A stretch of 64,000 nucleotides of DNA from Solidesulfovibrio sp. (GTDB lineage Bacteria; Desulfobacterota; Desulfovibrionia; Desulfovibrionales; Desulfovibrionaceae): contig NZ_JARKOZ010000032.1 of the NCBI RefSeq assembly GCF_029978005.1, forward strand, positions 16,319-80,318. Direction: 5' to 3'. Under the pieces are notes generated by a model, which ran no database searches, was not told the DNA's origin, and worked only from the letters and a program-made list of their open reading frames with translations. Every line of letters starts with the position of its first letter. Within the stretch, counting starts at the first letter, position 1. Below, piece after piece: positions 23,378-24,441 of this stretch. The position numbers and the translations under genes are program-made.

Positions 23378-24178
23378 CTACTCGGCGGCCAGCATCTGCA
23401 TGGCCGCGTCCACGCTGGCGTTTTCGTGGACGATGGCCGTGACGGCGGCCAGGAGCCTGGCCGGCTCGGGGTCCTGGAAGATGTTGCGTCCCACGGAAAG
23501 CCCCGCGCCGCCGGCCAGCACGCTGTCGCGGATCATTTCCAGGAGGCCCCGCCGGGAGTCGATCTTCGGGCCGCCGGCAATGACCACCGGCACGCAGCAG
23601 CCGGCCACGACCTTGGCGAAGCTGTCCGGATCGCCGGTGTAGGGCACCTTGACGATGTCCGCGCCGAGCTCGTTGCCGACCCGGGCGCAGTGGGCCACCA
23701 CGTCGGCGTCGAACTCGTTTTTGACCTTCGGGCCGCGCGCGTACATCATGGCCAGCACCGGCATGCCCCAGGACACGGCGGCCTCGGTCACCAGGCCGAG
23801 GTCGTCGAGCATGCGCGCCTCGGTCTCGTCGCCGAGGTTGACGTGCACGGACACGGCGTCGGCCCCCAGGCGGACGGCTTCCTCCACCGTGCACACCAGG
23901 GTCTTGGCGTTGGGGAAGGGCGAGAGGCTGGTGCTGGCCGAGAGGTGGATGATGAGCCCCACGTCGCGGCCGCGCGCCCGGTGGCCGCAGCGCACCACGC
24001 CCTTGTGCATGAGCACGGCGTTGGCCCCGCCGGCGACGATGCCGGTGACGGTCTCGCGCATGTCCTCGATGCCCGCGATGGGGCCGACGGAAACGCCGTG
24101 GTCCAGCGGCACGATGATGGTGCGGCCGGTGTCGCGGTTGACGATGCGCTCGAGACGGATGGATTTGCCGATGGTCAT
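23378..24178 (-). CDS. DeoC/FbaB-type aldolase, probable 2-amino-3,7-dideoxy-D-threo-hept-6-ulosonate (ADTH) synthase
   Basis: [69 protein letters not shown] before ATG. Confidence 0.85.
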
Positions 24179-24238
24179 GGTCGTTCTCCTTTGCGGTTTT
24201 CGCGAAGGAGCCCGGCTTTTCCCGGCGGCTCGGTCATG

Positions 24239-24270
24239 AAAAAGGGCCGCCGGCGTGTCGCCCGCGGCCC
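24239..24270 (-). terminator. Intrinsic terminator/attenuator upstream of the ADTH-synthase-like gene
   Basis: Minus strand: GGGCCGCGGGCG-ACA-CGCCGGCGGCCC-TTTTT (12-bp stem, one mismatch). Confidence 0.8.
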
Positions 24271-24297
24271 CTGTCGGCGGTGTTGTGGGATGCGGCC

Positions 24298-24396
24298 CTA
24301 TTTGGCCGCGCCACCCGCCGTGCCGCGAGCGCGAAGGCCGTAATAATAATACGAGCCGGCGAAAAGGATGCGCGTGGCGGCGAAACGGGTGTTCAT
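24298..24396 (-). CDS. Putative 32-aa leader peptide [32 protein letters not shown] with four consecutive Tyr codons
   Basis: TAGGAG-N7-ATG; TAT TAT TAT TAC at 24340-24351; stop followed by an intrinsic terminator, then an aromatic-pathway enzyme gene. Confidence 0.8.
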
Positions 24397-24441
24397 GGAG
24401 AGACTCCTAGCCCATGGGCCGGCTTCCCGTCAAGGGCGGGC

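Follow-up and report, generated by a model that had tools for sequence, protein, structure and literature searches.

A probable tyrosine-sensing transcription attenuator before a lone ADTH-synthase gene of Solidesulfovibrio and its differently coded relatives in Desulfovibrionales

Comparative analysis of a 64,000-nucleotide stretch of Solidesulfovibrio sp. DNA (referred to below as the window) indicates that a site on its minus strand is very probably a ribosome-mediated transcription attenuator, which would sense charged tyrosyl-tRNA and control a lone gene for 2-amino-3,7-dideoxy-D-threo-hept-6-ulosonate (ADTH) synthase (Table 1). The site combines a short ORF, a run of cognate codons, an intrinsic terminator and, just after the codons, an antiterminator that excludes the terminator. 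A broader reading of the comparison is likely, if held with less confidence: one leaderless module in Desulfovibrionales appears to have been copied before many genes that make or transport aromatic amino acids, its control codons changing to Phe, to Tyr, to Trp or to all three as genes duplicated from the operon, with the site in the window being Tyr-specific.

ADTH synthase feeds aromatic synthesis. The assignment of the regulated gene to this family, proposed in an earlier note made from the sequence of the window, is borne out by the TIGR01949 model (384 bits, cut-off 299). The closest solved structure is MJ0400, and the Asp, Tyr and Lys that we take to be its active-site residues align in the window's enzyme. 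This copy stands alone, with genes for a TetR-like regulator and an MFS transporter downstream and an HIBADH-like gene upstream of the leader. A second copy in the genome (67% identical, on another contig) is followed by 3-dehydroquinate synthase II and pheA.

Table 1. Features of the candidate attenuator and its gene, in window coordinates
Feature	Position	Strand	Basis or remark
-35 element TTGACG of leader promoter (putative)	24428..24433	-	TTGAC spacing conserved across leaders
-10 element TAGGAG (putative), 18-nt spacer	24404..24409	-	ends 7 nt before ATG; read as SD in the earlier note
Leader peptide ORF, 32 codons	24298..24396	-	probably leaderless; start near 24396 (predicted)
Possible region 1, protector pairing with region 2	24370..24381	-	minimum-energy fold of this sequence only
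Control codons TAT TAT TAT TAC (Tyr4)	24340..24351	-	same DNA in most orthologs
Region 2, antiterminator 5' arm GCTCGCGGC	24322..24330	-	partner is 24268-24260; conservation and covariation across 83 attenuators
Upper antiterminator stem, 24320-24311 with 24288-24275, enclosing hairpin 24309-24304:24297-24292	24275..24320	-	folds
Region 3 GCCGCGGGC, common to antiterminator and terminator 5' arm	24260..24268	-	comparison and covariation
Intrinsic terminator, hairpin 24270-24259/24255-24244 and T5 24243-24239	24239..24270	-	folds, alignment of 83 sites
ADTH synthase, lone paralog, regulated gene	23378..24178	-	TIGR01949, NF005556 above cut-off

The leader ORF, its run of four Tyr codons, the terminator hairpin with its T5 tract, and the order of leader, terminator and gene start are all found where the earlier note had placed them. 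That note proposed an alignment of orthologs from related genomes and named the absence of the Tyr codons or the hairpin from close relatives as grounds for rejection. Our alignment revealed both in every same-genus ortholog: the Tyr run, the ORF and the terminator are kept, and the rest of the N-terminus drifts. The ortholog is present in 13 Solidesulfovibrio genomes, counting that of the window, and all of them retain the run, as YYYY or longer in 12 and as YYYGY in L085. Among nine leaders compared, each with an intact run, the Tyr codons are 100% conserved, the preceding residues show 51% identity and the six residues after the run 91%. The reading frame, whose translation is predicted, is conserved in same-genus orthologs across a drifting sequence. 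The run uses TAT three times in succession, also in orthologs, although the genome favours TAC: TAT is a rare codon here, with 17 occurrences in the genes of the window against 108 of TAC. The 4.8 Mb genome has two copies of the sequence TAYTAYTAYTAY, one in the leader and one inside a protein gene, and the latter location led us to reject the second occurrence as another leader.

The same architecture recurs across Desulfovibrionales and beyond. We assembled 178 gene copies (156 distinct) by combining 80 loci of named organisms with additional copies taken from 59 related genomes; labels were assigned to 149 of the distinct copies, and the tree contains 112. In the final labels, 124 of the 149 distinct ADTH-synthase relatives have a leader ORF with a cluster of aromatic codons; this count includes L023, L032, L060 and L063, four leaders that escaped the strict filter and were labelled by hand on the basis of their sequences. 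Where measured (83 aligned sites), an intrinsic terminator and a conserved antiterminator come after the leader. The combined features were found at only 9 of 2,524 random positions, as compared with most ADTH-synthase starts; this and the rarity of TAYTAYTAYTAY show that the site exceeds what chance would give. Together with the presence of the Tyr run, antiterminator and terminator in every same-genus ortholog, this recurrence supports the earlier note's interpretation of the site as a tyrosine attenuator. Copies without a leader are mostly the second genes of tandem pairs or members of certain clades of lone copies. Of the five tandem pairs (L064, L075, L110, L139 and L142), four show the leader before the first copy only, and the L075 pair is cut by a contig end. 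Lone copies with no detectable leader are L018, L022, L025, L031, L035, L097, L105, L106 and L108.

The two competing helices were assessed on an alignment of the 83 sites that was made without structure and then scored helix by helix. In the antiterminator 92.1% of the cells are paired (37-44% once the partner is slid), and its covariation score of 0.271 compares with 0.218 for shuffled alignments (0 of 500 reaching it). In the terminator 91.7% of the cells are paired, each of the 11 pairs shows changes in both partners, and here too the covariation score lies above every shuffle. The earlier note's suggestion that the two structures are mutually exclusive therefore holds, as they share one strand and both covary. 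The distinction between them is clearest at column 107, which is mismatched or unpaired in the terminator at 63 of 83 sites and pairs with column 27 in the antiterminator at 80 of 83 (U-A 51, C-G 17, U-G 11, A-U 1). Even the distant relative L069 retains the antiterminator pairing with a quite different sequence (GGTGCGCC with GGCGCACC). The earlier note had built its antiterminator from the GCGGCC hexamers near the leader stop. These pairings do exist, but in the alignments they are a feature of the genus, and we rejected them as the antiterminator of the family, which is formed by 24330-24322 with 24268-24260.

Across the first set of 70 leaders the antiterminator duplex is possible in all 70, begins 6-17 nt past the last aromatic codon, and in 63 is stronger than expected from shuffled leader sequence at p≤0.05. 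The duplex of regions 2 and 3 in the window is not itself significant against shuffles (46 of 200), the region being very GC-rich, and it is therefore the family comparison that carries the case. The 242-nt region examined folds better than its shuffles (z -3.2), and a strict terminator scan of the site called nothing. Another GC-rich inverted repeat, of the CCGGG/CCCGG type, lies between terminator and gene at 24207-24231 and is also present in orthologs.

The stalling, the kinetics, the tyrosine response and the leaderless start, all of which we infer, would combine as follows. RNA polymerase would start at or a few bases from the leader AUG, so that ribosomes would load directly on the 5' end of the transcript. 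With Tyr-tRNA plentiful, the ribosome would pass the four Tyr codons, region 3 would be left free, the 3:4 terminator would form and transcription would end near 24239. With Tyr-tRNA scarce, the ribosome would stall on the Tyr codons, and region 2, the first free bases downstream of it (12 nt on from the first base of the last Tyr codon), would pair with region 3 ahead of the synthesis of the terminator's 3' arm, giving read-through into the ADTH-synthase gene.

Folding models describe the on state of this switch well. For a stalled ribosome and a transcript ending before the 3' arm, the probability of the 2:3 helix exceeds 0.5 in 68-69 of 70 leaders (65 of 70 in a variant of the model) and is 0.99 at the site in the window. 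The terminator dominates at equilibrium in almost all of the states modelled, so the switch would have to be kinetic; equilibrium folding with or without ribosome masking did not separate the on and off states, and only cotranscriptional (truncated) folds did. The modelled off state, on the other hand, is ambiguous. Region 2 lies inside the leader ORF, ending 5-22 nt before the stop, and in the footprint model a ribosome at the stop leaves it just behind or under the ribosome, not clearly masked. In this state, for a transcript that still lacks the 3' arm, the probability of the 2:3 helix exceeds 0.5 in 45 of 70 leaders (0.45 at the window's site), and a protector hairpin appears in one fold only. 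The zero obtained for a ribosome at the stop in the truncated folds is true by construction (region 2 is cut off) and is not evidence.

The specificity of the leaders appears, from their sequences, to follow gene context. Leaders of operon copies carry Phe, Tyr and Trp codons, and those of lone copies have Tyr-only or Phe-only runs. Trp codons occur in 76 of 81 operon leaders versus 2 of 32 lone-gene leaders (Fisher p=7e-20, for rows that are not phylogenetically independent). Tyr runs precede lone copies in Solidesulfovibrio, isolate Ess09-06 and Fundidesulfovibrio, and Phe runs in Pseudodesulfovibrio, Humidesulfovibrio and others. The Tyr leaders cluster in the tree as a single group (support 93) of ten rows, including one that is mixed Phe/Tyr; the Phe leaders appear in more than one place, and a minimum of five switches between the Tyr, Phe and mixed states is required.

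How the leader is translated depends on the reading of TAGGAG-N7-ATG, which the earlier note described as a good SD. The string is there, but its interpretation appears to be a misreading, as TAGGAG is more likely the -10 box of a conserved promoter. TTGAC stands 35-40 nt upstream of the leader ATG in 110 of 121 leaders (peak at 36-38; 1% in shuffles), and a -10-like TA element mostly ends 6-8 nt ahead of it. Orthologs have TAGGAT, TACCTT, TAGATT, TAGAAA or TATTTT at the position of TAGGAG. Since the TTGAC spacing is conserved, the SD core is rare and TAGGAG falls at the -10 position, the transcript probably starts at the leader AUG, making the ORF leaderless. A strict promoter scan called nothing at this place; the window's -10 is weak, and the -10 match is also poor in four close relatives (L005, L006, L092 and L093). 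The alternative that the same attenuator has a leader translated from an ordinary SD, with a promoter further upstream, we consider unlikely. TAGGAG would be a plausible SD in the window's own sequence, and the leaders of the most divergent relatives look leadered: their best promoter match (e.g. in L160 and L162-L164) lies 23-36 nt upstream, and several have an SD-like AGGA. However, AGGAG is not conserved in the orthologs, which argues, as does the TTGAC spacing, for the leaderless reading, and an SD core precedes only 18 of the 121 leaders as compared with 116 of the 121 regulated ADTH-synthase genes.

It is similarly improbable that the aromatic run senses Phe and Tyr jointly, or general charging stress, rather than tyrosine. 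Several orthologs have single Phe codons upstream of the run (e.g. FFGPYYYY in L003 and L004), and we counted the two single Phe codons of the window's leader against a Tyr-only reading. A Phe-Tyr-Phe leader is known in Corynebacterium glutamicum, where Phe but not Tyr affects the aroR-aroF attenuator (Neshat et al. 2014, reviewed in PMC11802643). Yet almost all orthologs have nothing but Tyr in the run itself, and L002 has four Tyr with no Phe or Trp at all. A constitutive terminator between two transcription units, accompanied by a chance ORF, would be ordinary after the HIBADH-like gene; we regard it as very unlikely, as the ORF, codon run and antiterminator are conserved despite different upstream genes, the antiterminator covaries, and a promoter intervenes between upstream gene and leader. 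The least probable reading, to the point of being negligible, is a T-box or other known riboswitch: a terminator placed 5' of a gene for amino-acid synthesis would suit it, but it fails because an Rfam search of the whole window yielded no family at gathering score, T-box included.

The proposed tyrosine attenuator resembles the enterobacterial trp and pheA attenuators in its short ORF with control codons, stalled-ribosome antiterminator and intrinsic terminator. Unlike them, it has Tyr as the control codon, an ADTH-synthase gene as the target, probably no SD, and region 2 within the leader ORF. With C. glutamicum aroR-aroF it would share leader attenuation at the entry step of aromatic synthesis; that system differs in its classical DAHP synthase, Phe response and phylum. 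Leaderless leader peptides are described for Sinorhizobium meliloti trpL (PMC7298713) and Streptomyces lividans trpL, leuL and ilvL (PMC8079986), in which attenuation likewise involves a transcript beginning at the leader AUG, here deduced from promoter spacing; they differ in amino acid and phylum. The open literature, to which our search was directed, held no relevant paper joining leader peptides, attenuation and Desulfovibrio and none naming a tyrosine attenuator; as subscription papers were outside its scope, priority is not certain. Attenuation itself is known, and what appears to be new is a Tyr-specific, leaderless, recoded attenuator family in Desulfovibrionales.

In E. coli, separate repressors and feedback govern the isoenzymes that catalyse the first step of the aromatic pathway, and here the isoenzyme division of labour appears to be achieved by codon changes in one RNA switch. 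Leaders of the full operon mix Phe, Tyr and Trp, and those of lone copies have Tyr or Phe alone, in separate lineages; nature thus provides a set of variants with which to test how specificity depends on the identity of the control codons. Leaders are already known for Trp, Phe, His, Leu, Ile and Thr, and the Tyr-specific case can be placed beside them.

A covariance model built from the 83 sites matched in 56 of the 59 relatives (E≤0.1). In the window's genome only the operon site and the present site stand out; the next-best match (C61) was rejected as lying inside coding sequence, and the genome's trpE, which directly follows another ORF, has no leader of its own. A survey of 198 genomes across the phylum gave matches at E≤1e-5 in 16, with 7 of the 16 in Desulfovibrionaceae, the window's own included; viral contigs yielded no relative. 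Homologous attenuators also precede other genes. A gene for an SSS-type sodium/solute symporter follows one at six loci, five Phe-rich (L204, L205, L207, L209 and L216) and one mixed Phe/Tyr (L208), which suggests an aromatic amino-acid transporter. Homologous Trp attenuators precede trpE at three loci (L210, L214 and L221), where trpE appears to lie outside the ADTH-synthase operon. A Trp-run leader with a terminator stands before a gene for a TRAP DctP-type receptor (solute-binding protein) at four loci (L211, L212, L213 and L215) and perhaps a fifth (L206), suggesting an importer of tryptophan or a related compound. In these leaders of other genes TTGAC lies 35-38 nt before the ATG in 10 of 14, and the SD core is absent from 13 of 14.
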